From Gracilinema caldarium DSM 7334 (GTDB lineage: Bacteria > Spirochaetota > Spirochaetia > Treponematales > Breznakiellaceae): DNA of 64,000 nt. The notes below the pieces were generated by a model. It ran no database searches. It was not told the DNA's origin and saw only the letters and a list, made by a program, of their open reading frames with translations. Both the position numbers and the translations under genes were made by a program. Below are positions 3,002-32,115 of the stretch, piece after piece. Positions within the stretch are counted from its first letter, which is position 1. Each line of letters opens with the position of its first letter. The stretch lies in NCBI RefSeq assembly GCF_000219725.1, contig NC_015732.1, forward strand, positions 1,736,001-1,800,000, written 5' to 3'.

Positions 3002-4909
3002 TTAATCGTGAACCAGTAAGTTAAAAGCTTTGTTTTTCTTCCAGGCTTGTAAAAGCCGGTATAAAGCAAGTGGGCACATCTGCGGGCTTACTGCATTCTG
3101 ATCCTGCAAGGTAATAGCAGAGGCTGCACACCCGGATCGAACCACAAGGTCATGTGCTCCAACAAGAGATTCAAGACATCTGGTTCGAACGATAGCAGCC
3201 AGATAAGAATCTCCTGCACCGGTAGCACTGATCATGGGTAGGACCGGAGGACGCCCCCACATAATGGAAACACTGTTCATCACTATGACTCCTTCGGTGC
3301 CAAGACTGACATGTAATTCCTGACAACCTTTGTCAAGTAAAAACCGGGAAGCCATAAGAATCCGTTCTAGATCTCTTCGTGGAATCGACGAATGCTCCTG
3401 TGGAGAAATCGATTCTATAAATTGATGAATAGACTTGGGTATTATCTTTGATTCCCCCCAGTTCAGACTTTCTGCTATGGCAAAGAGCTCATCCCTGTTC
3501 GGTTTGATACCAAAGAAGCGGCCTATAAGGGCTCCTCCTTTGTAAGAGGCAATGCTGCGGGCCTTGGTAATAGAAACTGGGTCAAACCAGACTGGAATAC
3601 CTGGGCACCTATCGAGGAGTGCTTCTATGGTTTCGGGAATGAGGTTGCCATCAATGATCACCATAGAATAGACTAGGCCAGCGCTGGTAGCACCAGTAGC
3701 GCTGGGGGACCTTGCATCGAAAGCGCTATCCCCGGCACAGGTCTGATCAGAGAGCGCTGAGAGGCAGGCCTCCAGAACATCAGGGGTGAGCCGCTTGATT
3801 GAATCCATCGATGAAAGGGCTAGCTTCATATCCCCAGTTTCATCAAGAATGGAAAGGTAGCAGGAAGGACTATCGGCTTCTACTAAGAGACACCCATCGA
3901 GTCCGACTCCTGCTGCTTTAGTTTCTTCAAGAAGCATACGAGACAGAGGATCTTTACCGAATACAGAAATAAATTGTACCGGAATGTTAAGCCGAGCCAA
4001 ATTTTCCGCTATGTTCCGCCCTGCACCACCCCGGGAAAAACGCACCCTTCCGGGATTAGAATCCCGATCGTTAAGAGGTCCAAAGGGGCGTCCTTCGATA
4101 TCAACATTTGCACCACCTGCTACCAAAACAGGCAGAGGCTTAATGAAATAGTGTAATGTTCCCTCATCTGAGCCATCTCCATGTTCGTAGTGAAGACCGC
4201 ATACAAAACCAAGGGTCCTCAAGGTAATTTCTGAATAAAAGGCAACATGGGTGGGATCCTCCTTGTACCACCAGGAGCTAAAAAAACGTGAAATTTCATC
4301 ATTTTTTATAGAAAAATATTGATCTGGCAGTGTATGGGTATGGACTGCAAGGAGACCGCCGGGCTTTAAGTAGTGGTTCATAGCAGCAAAATCAGCGAGA
4401 GGATTTTTAAAGTGTTCCGCTACTTCAATGCAAATAATAATGTCAAATCGTTGCTGTTCTTGAGGAAGGGATGGCCCAAAAAAGGGATCATAAGACTCAA
4501 CCTGGAACCCCTGTTCGCGGAGCAGCTCTGAGGCTACTGGCTCAGGTCCTGAGCCCCAGTCTAAAATACGTGGGGCCGCATCATTTACTATTATATTCCA
4601 TCGCTGCAAAACCCTGTTTAAAATTGTCGAAATAAACTGAACATACTCTTTATTGTAGCGATTGTTATTATGGAGCATATACCGATTCTGTTCAGCCTCC
4701 CGGTCCAGGAAGGACTTCGGATCGGCCCATACAAAACCACAGGAATCACAGGCAAAAAAAGACCTTTTTTTTGTCATAAAACTTTTGCTTGGAACACTGT
4801 CGCAGAACGGACACTTCATAGAATGATTACTGTACTGCAGATTTTCCTGATTCGCAAGAGATAGGATGAACCCAATGATATCTCTCTTGACATATCGATA
4901 AAAATACAT
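3002..4909 (-). CDS. Fusion: zinc-ribbon class I methyltransferase + PfkB pseudouridine kinase
   Basis: One uninterrupted frame of 635 codons. Residues about 31-58 carry a four-Cys zinc ribbon (CPFC and CDSC), followed by a class I SAM methyltransferase (ILDWGSGPEP about 115-124; IEVAEHF; LKPGGLL). From about 260 a PfkB kinase begins with AGGANVDIEGRPFGPL and SRGGAGRNIAENLARL, the PsuK pattern, and ends with the catalytic GAGD motif (SATGAGDSYL). The kinase would phosphorylate pseudouridine for PsuG next door. The target of the methyltransferase is unknown. The first ATG has a weak AAGG site; an internal ATG at 4819, just before the zinc ribbon, is an alternative start. Kinase call firm, methyltransferase role open. 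Confidence 0.8.
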   Translation of the reverse strand: MYFYRYVKRDIIGFILSLANQENLQYSNHSMKCPFCDSVPSKSFMTKKRSFFACDSCGFVWADPKSFLDREAEQNRYMLHNNNRYNKEYVQFISTILNRVLQRWNIIVNDAAPRILDWGSGPEPVASELLREQGFQVESYDPFFGPSLPQEQQRFDIIICIEVAEHFKNPLADFAAMNHYLKPGGLLAVHTHTLPDQYFSIKNDEISRFFSSWWYKEDPTHVAFYSEITLRTLGFVCGLHYEHGDGSDEGTLHYFIKPLPVLVAGGANVDIEGRPFGPLNDRDSNPGRVRFSRGGAGRNIAENLARLNIPVQFISVFGKDPLSRMLLEETKAAGVGLDGCLLVEADSPSCYLSILDETGDMKLALSSMDSIKRLTPDVLEACLSALSDQTCAGDSAFDARSPSATGATSAGLVYSMVIIDGNLIPETIEALLDRCPGIPVWFDPVSITKARSIASYKGGALIGRFFGIKPNRDELFAIAESLNWGESKIIPKSIHQFIESISPQEHSSIPRRDLERILMASRFLLDKGCQELHVSLGTEGVIVMNSVSIMWGRPPVLPMISATGAGDSYLAAIVRTRCLESLVGAHDLVVRSGCAASAITLQDQNAVSPQMCPLALYRLLQAWKKNKAFNLLVHD

Positions 4910-4924
4910 ATAATTGCCTTATAA

Positions 4925-4952
4925 AACAGTTGTTAGTAACAACTGTTAACAG
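4925..4952. promoter_or_regulatory. Inverted-repeat operator between divergent genes
   Basis: A perfect 10-bp inverted repeat, AACAGTTGTT / AACAACTGTT with a 3-base centre (4925-4947), runs into a second overlapping palindrome CTGTTAACAG (4943-4952), giving three AACAG/CTGTT half-sites. It lies in the 51-bp gap between the divergent methyltransferase-PfkB gene and a MarR-type regulator. TTGTT..AACAA arms suit a MarR-family dimer, so autoregulation, and perhaps control of both directions, is inferred. Confidence 0.65.
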
Positions 4953-4960
4953 AAGCAATC

Positions 4961-5326
4961 ATGCATCAACAATTATGTGCCTTAAAAGATATTTTACGCT
5001 CGATTACCCAGCTGGAAGAAGCCATACAGGCAACCTATCACATCAGCCTGACCGAAGCGATGGTGCTCTGCGCCATTGATGGGGGCTGCCGCTATGCCCA
5101 TGACCTGGCCGAAGATGTGGGGCTTTCCCCATCCCGGCTTTCCCGCATCATCGCCGGCCTTGAACGGAAAGGGCTCCTGGAACGGGAACAGAACCGGGAA
5201 GACCGCCGTCACTGGCAGAACCGGCCGACCGAGGCGGGCAAAACACTGTTAGTACATATGAAGACCGAAGGCATCGATATTCCTCCGGCCTTGGAATCCA
5301 TAATTTTAGTTCATGAGAAGGAGTAA
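4961..5326 (+). CDS. MarR-family transcriptional regulator
   Basis: 121 residues with a winged helix-turn-helix: the recognition region reads AHDLAEDVGLSPSRLSRIIAGLERKGLLERE and is followed by the wing NREDRRHWQNRPTEAG, the typical MarR DRR..LTxxG shape. It is slightly shorter than most MarR proteins, with a short C-terminal dimer helix. It is the first gene of the plus-strand sulfur locus, three bases before the sulfur-relay protein, and has its own inverted-repeat operator. Cys35 and Cys48 could make it a thiol or sulfide sensor, but that is conjecture. Confidence 0.8.
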   Translation: MHQQLCALKDILRSITQLEEAIQATYHISLTEAMVLCAIDGGCRYAHDLAEDVGLSPSRLSRIIAGLERKGLLEREQNREDRRHWQNRPTEAGKTLLVHMKTEGIDIPPALESIILVHEKE

Positions 5327-5329
5327 ATC

Positions 5330-7921
5330 ATGGCGAAATACATTATCATCGGCGGCGTTGCCGGCGGGGCCACCACCGCGGCCCGGCTTCGCAGAAATGA
5401 TGAGCATGCGGAAATCATCCTGGTAGAACGGGGAGATTACATTTCCTATGCCAACTGCGGTCTGCCCTACTATACAGGAGGAGTGATCTCGGAGCGGGAA
5501 AAGCTCTTCGTAATGACCCCCGAAAAATTCAATCAAACCCTTCATGTTGACGTACGGATAGCCACTGAGGCTACCGCCATTGATCGGGCACATAAAACCG
5601 TAACCCTGGTTGAACGGAAAACCGGCAAAACCTATACCGAATCCTATGATACCCTGGTTCTCTCCCCCGGCGCTGAACCGGTCCGACCTCCCATACCCGG
5701 CCTGGACCTGGAAGGAATTTTCACCCTCCGTTCTGTCCCCGATGTGGATGGCATTAAGGCCTGGCTCGACATGAAACGGCCCGAGCGGGCGGTGGTGGTG
5801 GGCGGCGGCTTTATCGGCCTTGAAATGGCGGAAAACCTGGCCCATCGGGGTATGGCAGTTACCATTATAGAAGCCCTGGATCAGGTCATGGCTCCCATCG
5901 ATTTTGAAATGGCCGCCCTGGTACACCGGCACCTACGGGACAAGGATATCGAGCTCCGGCTTAAGGACGGCGTATCCGCCTTTGAAAAGCGGGGAAGCCG
6001 TATTTTTGTAAAACTGGCCTCTGGCGACGAGGTTCCCACCGATGTGGTAATTTTCTCTGTTGGTGTCCGGCCTGACACCAAGCTTGCCCGGGATGCGGGT
6101 CTAGAGACTACACCCCAGGGGAAACCCGGTGCCGGCGCCATCCTCGTGGATGAGCACTTCCGCACCTCGGACCCGAACATCCGGGCTGTGGGGGACGCCA
6201 TCGCTTTCCGCAATCCCTTGAGCAATGAGGTCGGTATTGTCCCCCTGGCTGGTCCTGCCAACAAACAGGGCCGGCTTGTAGCCGATGCAATCGTATTTGG
6301 TGATGACCAGGTCCCGGCCTGGAAGGGCGCAATCGGAACCTCAGCCGCTAAGGTGTTTGATCTTACTGTTGCCGCCACGGGACTTAATGAAAAGGTCCTG
6401 GCCCGAATCGGGAAACCCTGTGTTTCTGTCATCATCCATCCTAATAACCATGCTAGCTATTACCCCAACGCGGTGCCCCTGACACTGAAGGTAATTTTCG
6501 ATCCCCAGACGACCCGTATCCTGGGTGCCCAGGCTGTAGGATACGATGGGGTTGATAAACGGATCGATGTTATTTCCGCCCTTATCCGAAAGGAAGGGAC
6601 CGTGGCTGACCTTTGCGAGTTTGAGCATGTATACGCCCCGCCCTTCTCTTCCGCTAAAGACCCGGTCAATATGGCGGGCTTTGTGGCAGAAAACATCCTG
6701 CAAGGCCGCTCCAAGGTCGTTTCCTGGAAACAATTTGAGGAACTGCGGGCAAAGGGAGCCTTTGTACTCGATGTGCGAACCCGGGAAGAATTTGAACTTG
6801 GAGCCATCCCCGGTGCGGTCTGCATTCCCAACACGGAACTGCGCCACCGGCTCAATGAAGTCCCCAGGGACAGAAAAGTCCTGGTGTACTGCGGCGTCGG
6901 GCTGCGGGGCTACCTGGCAGAGCGGATCCTCAGACAGAATGGCTGGACCGACCTGTACAACCTGACCGGCGGATACAAGACCTGGTCAGCGGCGGTAGAA
7001 AAGCAGGACAACCCGGGAGCTCTTAAGGACTGGAAGCCGGCCAACACCTGCGTCGATCCTAATGTAGCCAAGGCAATGGCAGACCGGACCGTTACCTACG
7101 GCGAAGGCACCGGTATTCCCGAAGGTATCACAAAAAGCGGAGCGGGTAAAACTATCCTGGTGGATGCCTGCGGCCTCCAGTGCCCCGGCCCCATCATGCG
7201 GCTCAAAACAGAAATGGATAAGGCCGAGGAAGGCACACGGATCCTCGTATCCGCCACGGACCCCGGTTTTGCACGGGATGTACAGTCCTGGGCAAAACTG
7301 ACCGGAAACCTCCTTATCAGCCTGGAACATTCAGGCGGACGGATCGAAGCGGTCATTGAGAAAACCGTTGCCCAATCCAAGCTCGCAGCCGCCGGTCAGA
7401 TGGCAGGGACCGCCATGGCAGGTTCCGGCCTTCGGATGGTATCTGCCGGTACAGATGCGGCAAGCCTCATTGTCTTCTCCAACGATTTCGACAAGGCCCT
7501 TGCCTCCTTCGTATTAGCTAACGGCGCCGCAGCGGTGGGCAAAAAGGTTACCATGTTCTTTACCTTCTGGGGCCTCTCGGTAATCATGAAAAAAGATAAG
7601 CCCCGAGTTGCTAAGGACTTTATGGGCAAGATGTTCGGCATGATGCTCCCCAAGCATGCGGGTCAGCTGTCCCTGTCCAAGATGAACTTTGGTGGCATGG
7701 GACCGGTCATGATGAAGTCCCGGATGAAGGCAAAGCAGGTTGATCAGCTGGAACAGATGATCCAGGCTGCTAAGGCCGCCGGTGTTCGCATGGTAGCCTG
7801 CCAGATGTCCATGGATATTATGGGGGTCAGCAAGGAAGAACTGCTTGAGGGTGTTGAAATTGGCGGCGTGGCTACCTACATGGAAGCAGCCTCGGAGGCC
7901 AAGGTAAATCTCTTTATCTAA
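5330..7921 (+). CDS. Four-domain sulfur-relay protein: CoA-disulfide reductase-like / rhodanese / TusA / DsrE
   Basis: 863 residues. Domain 1 (about 1-450) is an FAD/NAD(P)H disulfide oxidoreductase with two Rossmann motifs (IIIGGVAGGATTAARL; VVVGGGFIGLEMAENL) and the single active Cys43 in SYANCGLPYY, as in CoA-disulfide reductase. Domain 2 (about 464-560) is a rhodanese with Cys521 in VYCGVGLRG. Domain 3 (about 608-685) is TusA-like with CPGP at 618-621. Domain 4 (about 700-863) is DsrE-like with Cys824 in ACQMSMD. The four cysteines suggest persulfide hand-over along one chain in the cytosol. Translationally close to the MarR gene (3-bp gap, AGAAGGAG site) and upstream of sulfur-assimilation genes. 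The architecture is known in anaerobes; the substrate here is inferred. Confidence 0.88.
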   Translation: MAKYIIIGGVAGGATTAARLRRNDEHAEIILVERGDYISYANCGLPYYTGGVISEREKLFVMTPEKFNQTLHVDVRIATEATAIDRAHKTVTLVERKTGKTYTESYDTLVLSPGAEPVRPPIPGLDLEGIFTLRSVPDVDGIKAWLDMKRPERAVVVGGGFIGLEMAENLAHRGMAVTIIEALDQVMAPIDFEMAALVHRHLRDKDIELRLKDGVSAFEKRGSRIFVKLASGDEVPTDVVIFSVGVRPDTKLARDAGLETTPQGKPGAGAILVDEHFRTSDPNIRAVGDAIAFRNPLSNEVGIVPLAGPANKQGRLVADAIVFGDDQVPAWKGAIGTSAAKVFDLTVAATGLNEKVLARIGKPCVSVIIHPNNHASYYPNAVPLTLKVIFDPQTTRILGAQAVGYDGVDKRIDVISALIRKEGTVADLCEFEHVYAPPFSSAKDPVNMAGFVAENILQGRSKVVSWKQFEELRAKGAFVLDVRTREEFELGAIPGAVCIPNTELRHRLNEVPRDRKVLVYCGVGLRGYLAERILRQNGWTDLYNLTGGYKTWSAAVEKQDNPGALKDWKPANTCVDPNVAKAMADRTVTYGEGTGIPEGITKSGAGKTILVDACGLQCPGPIMRLKTEMDKAEEGTRILVSATDPGFARDVQSWAKLTGNLLISLEHSGGRIEAVIEKTVAQSKLAAAGQMAGTAMAGSGLRMVSAGTDAASLIVFSNDFDKALASFVLANGAAAVGKKVTMFFTFWGLSVIMKKDKPRVAKDFMGKMFGMMLPKHAGQLSLSKMNFGGMGPVMMKSRMKAKQVDQLEQMIQAAKAAGVRMVACQMSMDIMGVSKEELLEGVEIGGVATYMEAASEAKVNLFI

Positions 7922-7954
7922 TTAACTAAAAAACAGGCAACTCGGTTGCATAAG

Positions 7955-7989
7955 GGCCCATAGTTCAGGTATACCATGAACTATGGGCC
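7955..7989 (+). promoter_or_regulatory. Hairpin that buries the aspartate kinase start codon
   Basis: A perfect 13-bp stem (7955-7967 with 7977-7989) and a 9-base loop. The ATG at 7983-7985 lies inside the right arm, and the only purine-rich candidate ribosome site (AGG) lies in the loop. There is no T-run after it, so it is not a normal terminator. A translational or transcriptional operator at the head of the aspartate kinase operon is inferred. Confidence 0.55.
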
Positions 7990-9353
7990 AAATTGTTGTT
8001 AAATTCGGCGGATCTAACCTTAAGAGCCCCGCAGACATAGAGCGGTCGGCCCGGGTGGCTGCCGCATATAAAGAACCACTGGTTGTTGTGGTTTCTGCTT
8101 TTTCCGGTGTAACCGATATGCTGATTCAGGGTATCGATGAAGCAATGCTTTCAGAGCATGCACCGGACATACTCTGTTCAAAGCTGGAAACTATTCATGA
8201 GTCTGCCCTCAGGCTTCATATTCAATCGGAAGCTGAAATAGGGGCTGTAATGGAAGTGCTTAAACAGCGGCTTGCACAGCTTAAGAAATTGCTCATGGGG
8301 ATTCATTACATCAGTGCGGTGCCCGATTTTACCCGGGACCACATTATATCTACCGGGGAACGGCTCTCGGCCCCCATTATTGCGGCGGTCTTGCGAAAAG
8401 CTGGACTGCAAGCCCGGGAAATACTTCCCGAAACTATGGGGCTTCTCACCGATGGTACCTTTGGCAACGCCGCGGCAGACCTGGCTGTTTGTGCCGAGCG
8501 GCTTTCATCAATAGTAACCTCTGATATAACACCGGTAGTGCCCGGGTTTTATGGCATTACGAAAGAAGGGAAAATTGCTGTTTTTGGCCGGGGGGGCTCG
8601 GATTATACCGCCGCGGTGATTGCCCGCTCCATACAGGCAGAGAGCCTCGATTTATGGAAAGATGTGGATGGTTTCCTTTCAGGCGATCCTCGGATCATTC
8701 AGGATTCTAAAACCATCCCCTATGTGAGCTACGAAGAAGCGGCAGAACTTTCCTATTTCGGTGCCAAGGTATTGCATCCCAGGACGGTTGAACCTTTGGA
8801 ACAGGATCATATACCGATCCGGGTGATGAATGTGGACCAGTTTGATGGTACCATAAGGCCCTATACGATTGTTGGACCGGATCGGGAACACTCCTGTACC
8901 TTAAAAAGTGTGGCTGCCACAGAAAACATGGGGATCATTCGACTTGAAGGCCCTGGGGTCGGGAGCAGACCGGGTATTCTTGCCCGGGCAACCACCGGAC
9001 TTGATGCAGCGGGGATTAACATCAGCAGTGTTATTACATCACAGACAAGCATTAACCTGCTCTTTCATAAAAAGGATATGCCCCGCGCCCTGGCGGTACT
9101 GCGATCAGAATCGGTACCGTCGGTAGTGTCCGTAGAAAGTCTGGAAGATATTGCAATTATTGCTGTGGTAGGTGACGGGCTTCGTCATAGACCGGGACTT
9201 GCAGCCCAAGTTTTCGGCTCCCTGGCGGAAGGGGGCATTAACATCCTGCTTACCCAGGCAGGAGCCAGCCCGGTGGCTATGTATATTATTGTAAGCAAAG
9301 AAGATACAGCGAAGGCCCTGAAGGCTATTCACCGTACCATACATCGGGGGTAA
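7983..9353 (+). CDS. lysC: Aspartate kinase
   Basis: 456 residues, full length for a monofunctional aspartokinase. The N-terminal VVKFGGSNL and VVVSAFSGVTDMLI motifs bind ATP and aspartate; STGERLSAPI is the catalytic block, and GRGGSDYTAAVIAR is typical. Two ACT repeats follow from about residue 300 for feedback control. It makes aspartyl phosphate, the precursor of aspartate semialdehyde. The next three genes are tied to homocysteine formation from that semialdehyde, with only a 4-bp gap to the first, so a dedicated supply role is likely. The start lies in an unusual hairpin. No semialdehyde dehydrogenase gene is present in the window. Confidence 0.93.
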   Translation: MGQIVVKFGGSNLKSPADIERSARVAAAYKEPLVVVVSAFSGVTDMLIQGIDEAMLSEHAPDILCSKLETIHESALRLHIQSEAEIGAVMEVLKQRLAQLKKLLMGIHYISAVPDFTRDHIISTGERLSAPIIAAVLRKAGLQAREILPETMGLLTDGTFGNAAADLAVCAERLSSIVTSDITPVVPGFYGITKEGKIAVFGRGGSDYTAAVIARSIQAESLDLWKDVDGFLSGDPRIIQDSKTIPYVSYEEAAELSYFGAKVLHPRTVEPLEQDHIPIRVMNVDQFDGTIRPYTIVGPDREHSCTLKSVAATENMGIIRLEGPGVGSRPGILARATTGLDAAGINISSVITSQTSINLLFHKKDMPRALAVLRSESVPSVVSVESLEDIAIIAVVGDGLRHRPGLAAQVFGSLAEGGINILLTQAGASPVAMYIIVSKEDTAKALKAIHRTIHRG

Positions 9354-9357
9354 CAAT

Positions 9358-10524
9358 ATGGGGGAAACAAAGAAAAGCTGGGAAGAAATTAACCAGAAAC
9401 TGGCTGCGGGCAAGGCGGTGGTCCTGACTGCAGAAGAAACCGCGGAACTCGCTAAGACGGAAACACCGGAAGAGGTGGCAAAAAAGGTTGATGTGGTTAC
9501 TACAGGAACCTTTGGGGCCATGTGTTCCTCCGGTATGTTCATCAACTTTGGACATCCTGAGCCACCCATCAGAATGGAGCTCATTACGCTGGATGGGGTC
9601 CCCGTTTTTGGCGGGGTGGCAGCTGTGGACGCCTATATTGGGGCTACCGAAACCCATCCCGATGATGGCCGCTTTGGAGGCGCCCATATCATCGAAAAGC
9701 TTATCAGAGGTGAGGAAGTGTTCCTTAAAGCTCATGCCAAGGGAACCGACTGCTACCCCCGGAGAGATATCGAAACCTATATTCATAAGGACCGGGTGAA
9801 CGAGATGATCCTCACTAATCCCCGGAATGCCTACCAGAACTATCCTGCAGCTACCAACTCAACCCATAAAACCCTGCACACCTACATGGGGACCCTGCTG
9901 CCTTCTTTCATGAATGTGAATTATTCCACCTCAGGCTGTCTCTCTCCACTCCTGAATGATCCCTATTTGCGCACTATAGGAATCGGGTCTCCGGTTTTCC
10001 TGGGAGGGGCCATCGGCTCGGTAGCCTGGAACGGTACCCAGTTTAACACGGAAAAACCGGTAAATGACCGGGGCATTCCCCTCTCTAACGCCAGGACTCT
10101 CATGCTGGTGGGAAATGCCAAGGAAATGTCCGCCGACTGGATCCGGGCAGGATACTATGAAAAATACGGCGTTACCATGTACGTCGGCGTAGGCTTTGCC
10201 ATCCCCGTGCTGGATGAAGATATGGCTTACCGGGTGATGATCCGGAACGAGGACATCGAAACAAGCCTCTGCGATTATGGGGTCGATGGCCACCCTGCCC
10301 TTGCCCGGGTTAATTACCGGGACCTTATGTCGGGAACCATCGAGCTCCGGGGCAAAAGGGTCCGTACGGCGCCCCTTTCTAGCTACCGCAGAGCCCGGCT
10401 TCTGGCGGAACAGCTGAAAACTATGGTCCTGCAGGGATCCTTCCCCCTTACTCCCCCGGCACGGCCCCTTCCGGAACACAGCCGGGTACAGGGATTAAGC
10501 ATTATTCGGGACCGGAGGGCATAA
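9358..10524 (+). CDS. DUF39 / COG1900 homocysteine biosynthesis protein
   Basis: 388 residues lacking the CBS domains that some archaeal relatives carry. Characteristic blocks are VTTGTFGAMCSSGMFINFGH, the GGVAAVDAYIGATE segment and STSGCLSPLLNDP, with conserved cysteines likely to handle sulfur. In methanogens this family, with a NIL-ferredoxin partner, is genetically required for direct conversion of aspartate semialdehyde and sulfide to homocysteine. Here the partner follows one base later and aspartate kinase precedes it, which fits that role closely. Function is by family and context. Confidence 0.85.
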   Translation: MGETKKSWEEINQKLAAGKAVVLTAEETAELAKTETPEEVAKKVDVVTTGTFGAMCSSGMFINFGHPEPPIRMELITLDGVPVFGGVAAVDAYIGATETHPDDGRFGGAHIIEKLIRGEEVFLKAHAKGTDCYPRRDIETYIHKDRVNEMILTNPRNAYQNYPAATNSTHKTLHTYMGTLLPSFMNVNYSTSGCLSPLLNDPYLRTIGIGSPVFLGGAIGSVAWNGTQFNTEKPVNDRGIPLSNARTLMLVGNAKEMSADWIRAGYYEKYGVTMYVGVGFAIPVLDEDMAYRVMIRNEDIETSLCDYGVDGHPALARVNYRDLMSGTIELRGKRVRTAPLSSYRRARLLAEQLKTMVLQGSFPLTPPARPLPEHSRVQGLSIIRDRRA

Positions 10525-10525
10525 G

Positions 10526-10939
10526 ATGGCGGGTAAATATGTTTTAGGATATTCGGCAGAGACTGTTTCGGAACCCATCCTTTGGAAACTGACCAAGGAT
10601 TACGATATACGGGTAAACATCCTGCGGGCTGAGATTTCCCCCGGCCAGGAAGGGAACCTTCTGGTAGAGCTCGATGCGGAAAGCGAGGCTAAACTCAATG
10701 CGGCACTGCAATGGCTCGAAACCATTGGGGTTACCTGGGTTAATGTGGCCAAGCGCTTAAGCTGGGATGAAGATCGTTGTATTGATTGCGGCGGCTGTTC
10801 CGGAGTCTGCTTTTCCGGAGCCATCACCCTGGACCGCAGCAACTGGAAGCTGGTTGTTGATCGGGATAAGTGCATCGCCTGTGGTGGCTGTGTGAAAGCC
10901 TGCCCTATGGGCTGTTTTACCCTCGACTTCGGAGAATAG
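10526..10939 (+). CDS. NIL-domain ferredoxin, partner of DUF39 protein
   Basis: 137 residues. The N-terminal half (about 8-75) is a NIL ligand-binding domain (ILRAEISPGQEGNLLVEL). The C-terminal half holds two [4Fe-4S] motifs, CIDCGGCSGVC and CIACGGCVKACP. The start has a GGAG site overlapping the end of the DUF39 gene. It is presumed to deliver electrons for reductive sulfur insertion in homocysteine formation together with the DUF39 protein. Confidence 0.9.
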   Translation: MAGKYVLGYSAETVSEPILWKLTKDYDIRVNILRAEISPGQEGNLLVELDAESEAKLNAALQWLETIGVTWVNVAKRLSWDEDRCIDCGGCSGVCFSGAITLDRSNWKLVVDRDKCIACGGCVKACPMGCFTLDFGE

Positions 10940-10942
10940 TCC

Positions 10943-11776
10943 CTGTACCGCCACCGTTTTTATCGGGAACATATGGGAACTGGCCGCTTCAGGTCTATCA
11001 CAGTGGCTGAAGGAGAATCGGACCTCTGGATCGGCTGGAACCGGTTTGGTGAGGCCCCTATCAACCAAGCCCAATCCGAAGAGTCCATATTGATGAATAG
11101 AGCCGGCGAAGTTGTGGCACTGGAGGCGGAGCTTCGTTACCAGGCTTCGGAGCTGTTGCACGAGCTCCGGTCAAACATTCAGGACTATGCCGCAATGCAC
11201 CCGGAATTCCTTACCTCTTTAGAGCCCCTCCCCTCTGATGCCGATGCCCCCGAACCGGTTCGGTCCATGTTGCTGGCGGGCCGCATTGCCGGCGTGGGGC
11301 CCATGGCCGCCGTGGCGGGGGCCATTGCTGAGCACCTTGGCATGGCCCTGCAGGACCGGTTCCATTTTGATGAATTGGTCATAGAAAATGGGGGGGACTA
11401 TTGGCTTACGGTGAAAGCTCCCCTTCCGGTGCGGGTCTATGGGGGGCTCTCTTCCCTCTCGGAAAAAATTTCGGTGATTGTAAACCCTGAGCAAAGCCCC
11501 TGCGGCCTCGCCTGCTCTTCCGGCACGGTGGGGCCTTCATTAAGCTTCGGCAAGGCCGATGGGGCCCTCGTTGTGGCCCCTGCCGCCGCCGCCGCTGACG
11601 CCTGGGCAACAGCCCTGGGAAACCGATTACGATACCAAAGCGACCTGGCCACCGAGGTAGAGGCCCTCATCACTATGAATAGGGATACTGATTACGACGA
11701 AGCATACCGCCCCCAGGGAGCCCTGGCCATCATGGCGGACCAGCTCGCCGCCTGCGGGAATATCAAGCTGGGGTAA
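10943..11776 (+). CDS. UPF0280 / COG2122 sulfur-assimilation protein, probable CTG start
   Basis: ApbE-related UPF0280 family, about 277 residues. The first ATG (10973) has no ribosome site and would cut off the conserved family start. In frame upstream, a CTG at 10943 is preceded by GGAG (10931-10934, eight bases away) and adds YRHRFYREHMG, which matches the usual N-terminal FYREWMG pattern of this family; a stop codon lies at 10937. The central GVGPMAAVAGAIAE and ENGGD motifs are typical. In Methanosarcina the COG2122 protein improves sulfide assimilation into homocysteine. It is the last gene of the aspartate kinase-DUF39-NIL operon. Confidence 0.82.
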   Translation: MYRHRFYREHMGTGRFRSITVAEGESDLWIGWNRFGEAPINQAQSEESILMNRAGEVVALEAELRYQASELLHELRSNIQDYAAMHPEFLTSLEPLPSDADAPEPVRSMLLAGRIAGVGPMAAVAGAIAEHLGMALQDRFHFDELVIENGGDYWLTVKAPLPVRVYGGLSSLSEKISVIVNPEQSPCGLACSSGTVGPSLSFGKADGALVVAPAAAAADAWATALGNRLRYQSDLATEVEALITMNRDTDYDEAYRPQGALAIMADQLAACGNIKLG

Positions 11777-11785
11777 GGGGCAATT

Positions 11786-12007
11786 CTAGTCTGCTAGTGC
11801 TTTAATAAATTCCTCCGGTGTAATACCAGCTTGTTTAAGAATTCCTGTCAAAGTTCCTAATTTTAATTCGCGATGATTTGGTATTACGCAACCTTTCGAA
11901 CCTCGCCGCATTACAATATGACTACCCCGTTGTCGAACAACTACAAATCCCAAATTTTTCAATGCACAAATTACATCTGCGCCTGAAAGGACCGGCAACT
12001 TAGGCAT
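11786..12007 (-). CDS. hicA: HicA-type mRNA interferase toxin
   Basis: 73 residues, the normal HicA length. The double-stranded-RNA-binding-like fold is shown by SGADVICALKNLGF, the catalytic His in QRGSHIVMRR and the C-terminal LKLGTLTGILKQAGITPEEF. It would cleave mRNA until bound by the HicB product. The start overlaps the end of hicB by 8 bp, with antitoxin first. It is convergent with the sulfur operon, 9 bp from the UPF0280 stop. Confidence 0.93.
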   Translation of the reverse strand: MPKLPVLSGADVICALKNLGFVVVRQRGSHIVMRRGSKGCVIPNHRELKLGTLTGILKQAGITPEEFIKALAD

Positions 12008-12206
12008 GATTTGGGATTCTAAAAGTAGTTAATAAAGAAGGACCACGGTAAGAAAGAGGAAATTCTTCTAAATACAGTTCTGTCGCTTCCTGCAAATTAG
12101 AAAGCGCTTCTTCTACTGTTTCACCTTGAGTGGTAGTTCCAGTTTCAGGATTATAAGCAATATATCCACCTTCAGGAGCAGGAGTTAAAACCGCTGACAA
12201 TTCCAT
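12000..12206 (-). CDS. hicB: HicB-type antitoxin
   Basis: 68 residues forming only the partial RNase H-like HicB domain: EGGYIAYNPETGTTTQGETVEEALSNLQEATELYLEE. No C-terminal DNA-binding domain is present, so autoregulation would need HicA or another factor. A GGGAGAAC site precedes the ATG, and a good sigma-70 promoter lies just upstream, so the pair can be expressed independently of the methyltransferase gene before it. Confidence 0.92.
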   Translation of the reverse strand: MELSAVLTPAPEGGYIAYNPETGTTTQGETVEEALSNLQEATELYLEEFPLSYRGPSLLTTFRIPNHA

Positions 12207-32043: not shown

Positions 32044-32115
32044 AGCGGCTGAAGGGAGTCGAACCCTCGTCTCCAGCTTGGAAGGCTGGGGTAATAGCCG
32101 TTATACGACAGCCGC
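32044..32115 (-). tRNA. tRNA-Gly (anticodon TCC)
   Basis: Minus-strand cloverleaf: acceptor GCGGCTG (32115-32109) pairs with CAGCCGC (32051-32045), discriminator T at 32044, anticodon stem CCAGC/GCTGG enclosing CTTCCAA, and a GGGTTCGACTCCC T-arm. The CCA end is not encoded. Its first 13 bases are part of a 45-bp direct repeat just upstream. Confidence 0.95.

Follow-up and report, generated by a model that had tools for sequence, protein, structure and literature searches.

In Desulfovibrio vulgaris, homocysteine synthesis depends on each of the DUF39, NIL/ferredoxin, and COG2122 proteins and does not pass through homoserine (PMC5764234). In the M. acetivorans enzyme, the conserved cysteines are Cys54 and Cys131 (PMC12068725), and a conserved DUF39 cysteine is persulfidated in vivo in that organism (PMC5764234); the sulfur species reaching DUF39 has been called unclear (PMC12068725). 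Described separately are CoADR-rhodanese enzymes, which, where characterized, reduce persulfide and release H2S (PMC9405070, PMC7969121). The CoA-persulfide reductase of Enterococcus, for example, converts CoASSH to CoASH and H2S, and in cells its rhodanese cysteine alone is persulfidated (PMC9405070). In B. fragilis, the MarR protein BmoR represses the adjacent gene for a four-domain fusion, which helps against diamide (PMC6158253). Thus, a unit composed of a MarR regulator and a four-domain fusion was already known; no description of the six-gene arrangement reported here was found in the literature searched.

Gracilinema caldarium, a spirochaete of hot springs, carries members of these families side by side. 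Formerly named Spirochaeta caldaria H1T, it is obligately anaerobic and ferments no amino acids (PMC3739177). The window that we analyzed is a stretch of 64,000 nucleotides, positions 1736001-1800000 of the single 3,239,340-bp chromosome, and the locus lies at window positions 4925-11776. The ORF listing gives six ORFs there, all on the + strand, in the order MarR, CoADR-rhodanese-TusA-DsrE2 fusion, aspartate kinase, DUF39 (Pfam HcyBio), NIL-ferredoxin, and COG2122/UPF0280, separated by short gaps of 3, 61, 4, 1, and 33 nt, respectively. The features, in window coordinates, are:

4887..4914, + strand, sigma-70 promoter TTGACA-16-TATAAT, 12/12 consensus matches, preceding MarR
4892..4900, no strand assigned, ATATCGATA box in the spacer of the -35 and -10 elements, candidate operator associated with the fusion gene
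4925..4947, no strand assigned, inverted repeat AACAGTTGTTA-G-TAACAACTGTT, perfect (11+1+11), before MarR
4961..5326, + strand, MarR-family regulator, 121 aa (PF01047, E 2e-10)
5330..7921, + strand, CoA-disulfide/persulfide reductase-rhodanese-TusA-DsrE2 fusion, 863 aa, four domain matches
7955..7989, + strand, hairpin with a perfect 13-bp stem (z = -5.1), overlapping the aspartate kinase start codon
7983..9353, + strand, aspartate kinase of the DUF39-linked clade (TIGR00657, 3.6e-100, over cut-off)
9358..10524, + strand, DUF39/COG1900a, predicted L-aspartate-semialdehyde sulfurtransferase large subunit (PF01837 HcyBio, 9.6e-140)
10526..10939, + strand, NIL domain plus two 4Fe-4S clusters, predicted electron-donating subunit (NIL PF09383, 7.6e-14)
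10973..11776, + strand, COG2122/UPF0280 protein (PRK04334.1-3, 3.9e-58, below that model's own cut-off)

The initial annotation had listed these six genes in this order on one strand with short gaps, which the ORFs and family matches bear out, and had proposed comparing gene order in related spirochaetes. The other three genomes of the genus have the same order as G. caldarium, although in two of these three a contig end cuts the locus at or after the NIL-ferredoxin gene. Phylum-wide, DUF39, NIL, and COG2122 are adjacent in 25 of the 30 loci searched, sometimes with NIL and COG2122 swapped; the 1.5-kb flanks of the remaining five showed no NIL or no COG2122. The shared order within the genus, together with the recurrence of DUF39-NIL-COG2122 across phyla, argues that the arrangement is not due to chance, and we infer that the locus is one transcription unit. 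Just 3' of it, on the - strand at 11786-12206, lie a HicA toxin gene and an overlapping HicB-like partner. On the other side, a 635-aa ORF (3002-4909, - strand) combines methyltransferase and PfkB (pseudouridine-kinase-like) domains and adjoins an Indigoidine_A (pseudouridine glycosidase-type) gene at 2032-2982.

The last three genes had been assigned to a homocysteine pathway, and both the Desulfovibrio genetics (PMC5764234) and the conserved cysteines found here support that assignment. DUF39 Cys56 and Cys132 are invariant in 10 homologues and are equated with Cys54/Cys131 of M. acetivorans by position, not by alignment to MA1821. The NIL-ferredoxin carries two 4Fe-4S motifs, and the COG2122 protein has a solved relative (2o34) and no Pfam match. 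Two distant members of the phylum, G061 and G074, have two DUF39 copies per genome.

Three aspartate kinases are encoded in the genome: ThrA, a fusion with homoserine dehydrogenase; a copy at 1041885, with the only asd of the genome within 4 kb; and the copy in the locus. DUF39-linked kinases also occur in Breznakiella, in the relatives G020 and G025, and in one Cloacimonadota and one Neomarinimicrobiota genome. All of them fall into a single long-stemmed clade (100/100 support, 9 rows, three phyla, among which rows L170-L174, labelled 'mono', are DUF39-linked copies), apart from ThrA and from LysC-type and other single kinases. This clade looks pathway-specific, and the family models used do not distinguish it; the DUF39 tree is compatible both with an ancestral kinase link and with one transferred along with the operon. 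In the Cloacimonadota genome, aspartate kinase, DUF39, NIL-ferredoxin, COG2122, metF, an unnamed 209-aa gene, and metH, a B12 methionine synthase, stand in a row (L022:8596-16262), which is thus predicted to cover nearly the whole path from aspartate kinase to methionine, asd excepted. The clade and this row are good evidence that the locus kinase would serve homocysteine synthesis. The earlier suggestion that it adds carbon supply gains support from both, as well as from its being a third copy, and the distinct clade helps to assign carbon flow.

The initial annotation had also called the locus self-contained, naming a complete classical pathway elsewhere as the refuter, and had advised checking whether metB/metC/metY and O-acetylhomoserine routes are missing. 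A complete direct-sulfhydrylation route is encoded: MetA of the acetyl type (at 1666728; MetA_acetyl, 472 bits, cut-off 460.5), MetY (at 2156893; OAH sulfhydrylase TIGR01326, 590 bits, cut-off 495), and ThrA (AK-HSD, 1004 bits, cut-off 726) all exceed curated cut-offs, and there is no MetX match in the genome. The unit contains neither asd nor a methionine synthase gene; Asd and MetH are single copies outside it (MetH at 3196092). Self-containment therefore fails, and since ThrA, MetA, and MetY are encoded elsewhere, the locus is a second, parallel route. In most genomes of the family, MetA is accompanied by a MetY-sized protein belonging to MetY's family, and the seven DUF39 genomes have DUF39 additionally (no MetA was found in G001, 89% complete). 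Five order-level relatives (G042, G043, G047, G053, and G056) have DUF39 with no MetA and no strong MetB/MetY-family protein, so that DUF39 is probably their only homocysteine route. The parts of the locus are known individually and their arrangement is new; with the usual pathway also present, it is not a stand-alone replacement.

The fusion matches CoADR (TIGR03385, 2e-143), rhodanese (PF00581, 1.6e-17), TusA (PF01206, 4.9e-18), and DrsE_2 (PF13686, 1.1e-56) models, and the cysteines expected for each step, Cys43, Cys521, Cys614/618, and Cys824, are invariant in 10 full-length homologues. Solved relatives of its CoADR and rhodanese domains are 3icr, 3nta, and 8a56. Because related enzymes reduce persulfide to sulfide, the fusion is likelier to supply or release sulfide than to capture it. 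A second CoADR-rhodanese protein, 45% identical, is encoded at G000:C1:2813879-2815528, and the matched stretch lacks TusA and DsrE domains.

DUF39 was found in 14 of 59 relatives, with the fusion directly upstream in six of these: the four of the genus, G018, and G025. A MarR-fusion pair directly precedes the core in the genus and in G018, and G025 has the fusion without MarR (an apparent frameshift in its fusion gene proved to be a run of N in the assembly). G018 lacks the intervening aspartate kinase, and fusion and DUF39 are still neighbours. Within the family, the DUF39 operon is patchy (7/36 genomes): Breznakiella has the core without an adjoining fusion and with an apparent transport cluster upstream, and in G020 (97% complete) the core is present and no full fusion was found. 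G043 and G049 carry fusion and DUF39 on separate contigs, several genomes have DUF39 plus only a CoADR-rhodanese protein at another site, and in families f4 and f5 fusion and DUF39 are unlinked or one occurs without the other. The relatives G041, G046, G052, and G058 have the full fusion and no DUF39, MetA, or strong MetB/MetY-family protein; they look like homocysteine auxotrophs in which the fusion has been retained. In G046, the fusion gene (L104:5555-7359) lies beside methionine-synthase-like genes. Its presence in spirochaetes without DUF39 indicates that the fusion has a function of its own and, as each partner occurs without the other, their joining is an innovation local to one family, where it has persisted in three genera. 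The linkage supports co-regulation or sulfur supply; direct transfer is not proven by linkage. The idea that persulfide capture is coupled to the pathway thus survives in part: linkage in three genera speaks for the coupling, whereas related enzymes run opposite to 'capture' (PMC9405070, PMC7969121). Persulfide-handling neighbours are a natural place to look for the DUF39 sulfur source.

The TTGACA-16-TATAAT promoter precedes the unit in 4/4 genomes of the genus; G018 and G025 also have the TTGACA-TATCGATA part of it. In these two other genera, the TTGACATATCGATA stretch is kept and the remaining upstream region has diverged. In 10 of 11 genomes, the motif ATATC[GT]ATA (ATATCKATA) precedes the fusion unit, whether or not DUF39 or MarR is there (further loci: L052, L053, L101, L102, L103, and L108); it occurs in 0.3-2.5% of shuffles, values that are only a guide because the motif was chosen by eye after looking at the sequences. 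Of five order-level relatives with no DUF39 downstream, four have it ahead of the fusion gene, and the TTGACATATCGATA box is present in G025, where the fusion locus has no MarR. Being kept without DUF39 and without MarR, the box apparently goes with the fusion gene.

The inverted repeat at 4925-4947 is the probable MarR operator, through which MarR would regulate its own expression. Its 8-nt arms are conserved within the genus with one substitution, in L015. Cys6, Cys37, and Cys43 of MarR are conserved in the 51%-identical G018 homologue and would suit a thiol- or persulfide-sensing MarR. Genome-wide, no second copy of the repeat had fewer than two mismatches to the 19-nt core; in a regulon search of the genome, the MarR repeat and the TTGACATATCGATA box occurred exactly only at a single locus, and for both the number of near matches was similar to that in the control. 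L113, a near match, was dropped as a regulon member because it showed neither a promoter nor a start context. The ATCGAT core prompted consideration of a SahR-type methionine regulon, which was set aside, SahR being described only in Proteobacteria in the source. Rfam models matched the window once, at a tRNA (32044-32115), and nowhere within or before the operon; thus no known SAM riboswitch controls the operon.

The weak point for single transcription is the 61-nt gap before aspartate kinase, which contains the strong hairpin at 7955-7989. The structure is kept within the genus by a compensatory G-C/C-G exchange, it matched no Rfam family, and it could possibly tune aspartate kinase translation, which we offer as a lead only. 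On the + strand, the gap yielded neither a promoter-like nor a plausible terminator-like site. A mini-ORF from 7976, considered as a leader peptide ahead of the kinase, was dropped because its start codon is not conserved in the genus.

Gene content and order, conserved cysteines, the kinase clade, the classical route, and the conserved promoter and repeat are all read from sequence, and from them we favour, at a probability of about 0.5, one regulated unit in which a MarR-controlled fusion supplies sulfur to a homoserine-independent homocysteine core as a second route beside ThrA-MetA-MetY. The core (aspartate kinase, DUF39, NIL-ferredoxin, and COG2122) would convert aspartate semialdehyde and sulfur to homocysteine without homoserine. 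The dedicated kinase would make aspartyl phosphate, which the single Asd encoded elsewhere would turn into the semialdehyde; DUF39 would add sulfur through a Cys56 persulfide, and the two 4Fe-4S clusters of the NIL subunit would reduce the adduct, with COG2122 assisting. MarR would repress the unit until sulfane sulfur or thiol oxidation relieves repression, and the fusion would then reduce sulfane sulfur to sulfide, or pass sulfur on, leaving more sulfur for DUF39. The single mRNA, the MarR ligand, the direction of the fusion reaction, and any metabolic coupling are the steps that we infer. The cell would run the locus as a second route beside ThrA-MetA-MetY. A more far-reaching version, in which a sulfane-sulfur-sensing MarR switches on the homoserine-independent pathway with its own kinase and its own sulfur supply (the four-domain reductase or relay feeding DUF39), so that the cell alternates two complete homocysteine routes according to sulfur form, is a tentative idea that we regard as doubtful.

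Several observations pull against a single unit. The gap and its hairpin could split the locus in two, the ATATCKATA box tracks the fusion and not DUF39, the core of Breznakiella has no fusion next to it and for that of G020 no full fusion was found, in f4 and f5 fusion and DUF39 are unlinked or occur singly, and MetA-MetY makes DUF39 dispensable on paper. Most of this would fit two neighbours with separate jobs, a BmoR-type thiol/sulfane-sulfur stress operon and a homocysteine operon that share at most read-through, as would the MarR-fusion pair that is a regulated unit by itself in B. fragilis (PMC6158253) and the four apparent auxotrophs with a full fusion. Yet within the family the full fusion is confined to DUF39 genomes and always sits directly upstream of the operon, in three genera and even without the kinase, and the + strand of the gap showed no promoter-like or plausible terminator-like site, so that we consider separate jobs possible but somewhat unlikely.

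The same adjacency in three genera could instead reflect a direct relay in which rhodanese, TusA, and DsrE2 hand sulfur to DUF39 Cys56, making protein-bound sulfur rather than free sulfide the substrate, close to the coupling that the initial annotation had inferred. All relay cysteines and Cys56 are conserved, and the conserved DUF39 cysteine does carry a persulfide in M. acetivorans (PMC5764234); but most DUF39 operons have no such fusion nearby, several genomes have DUF39 and only a CoADR-rhodanese protein elsewhere, and the characterized enzymes of that kind release H2S (PMC9405070, PMC7969121), which leaves a relay improbable. The complete ThrA-MetA-MetY route and the patchy distribution of the operon raise the further thought that it is a remnant or makes another thiol, homocysteine being supplied already. 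With all ORFs open, catalytic cysteines kept, and the kinase clade and Cloacimonadota metF/metH row tying the operon to methionine, we give this very little credence and retain one regulated unit as the preferred reading.

Compared with known systems, the core resembles L-ASST (MA1821/MA1822 and the Desulfovibrio trio) in its three proteins, adjacent here, its matching cysteine positions, and its two 4Fe-4S motifs. It differs in that the G. caldarium DUF39 has 388 aa and no CBS region, in the dedicated aspartate kinase and MarR-sulfur fusion added upstream, and in coexisting with a homoserine route. With the BmoR operon (BF638R_0572 and bmoR), the locus shares a MarR-family repressor beside a protein with four domains in identical order, and an inverted repeat, which lies in the promoter there and is the putative MarR-adjacent operator here; this likeness is one of gene family, domain order, and repeat. 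The gene order is reversed, with MarR first in G. caldarium, and homocysteine genes are not reported in B. fragilis. The CoA-persulfide reductase/CoADR-RHD enzymes (8a56, 3icr) and Shewanella 3nta correspond to the N-terminal 555 aa of the fusion, including the CoADR and rhodanese cysteines, whereas TusA and DsrE2 are two extra domains in G. caldarium. Direct sulfhydrylation by ThrA-MetA-MetY, encoded in the same genome, yields the same product, homocysteine, but passes through homoserine and O-acetylhomoserine and has its genes elsewhere; since a single cultured spirochaete has both routes, how they share the work can be tested directly.
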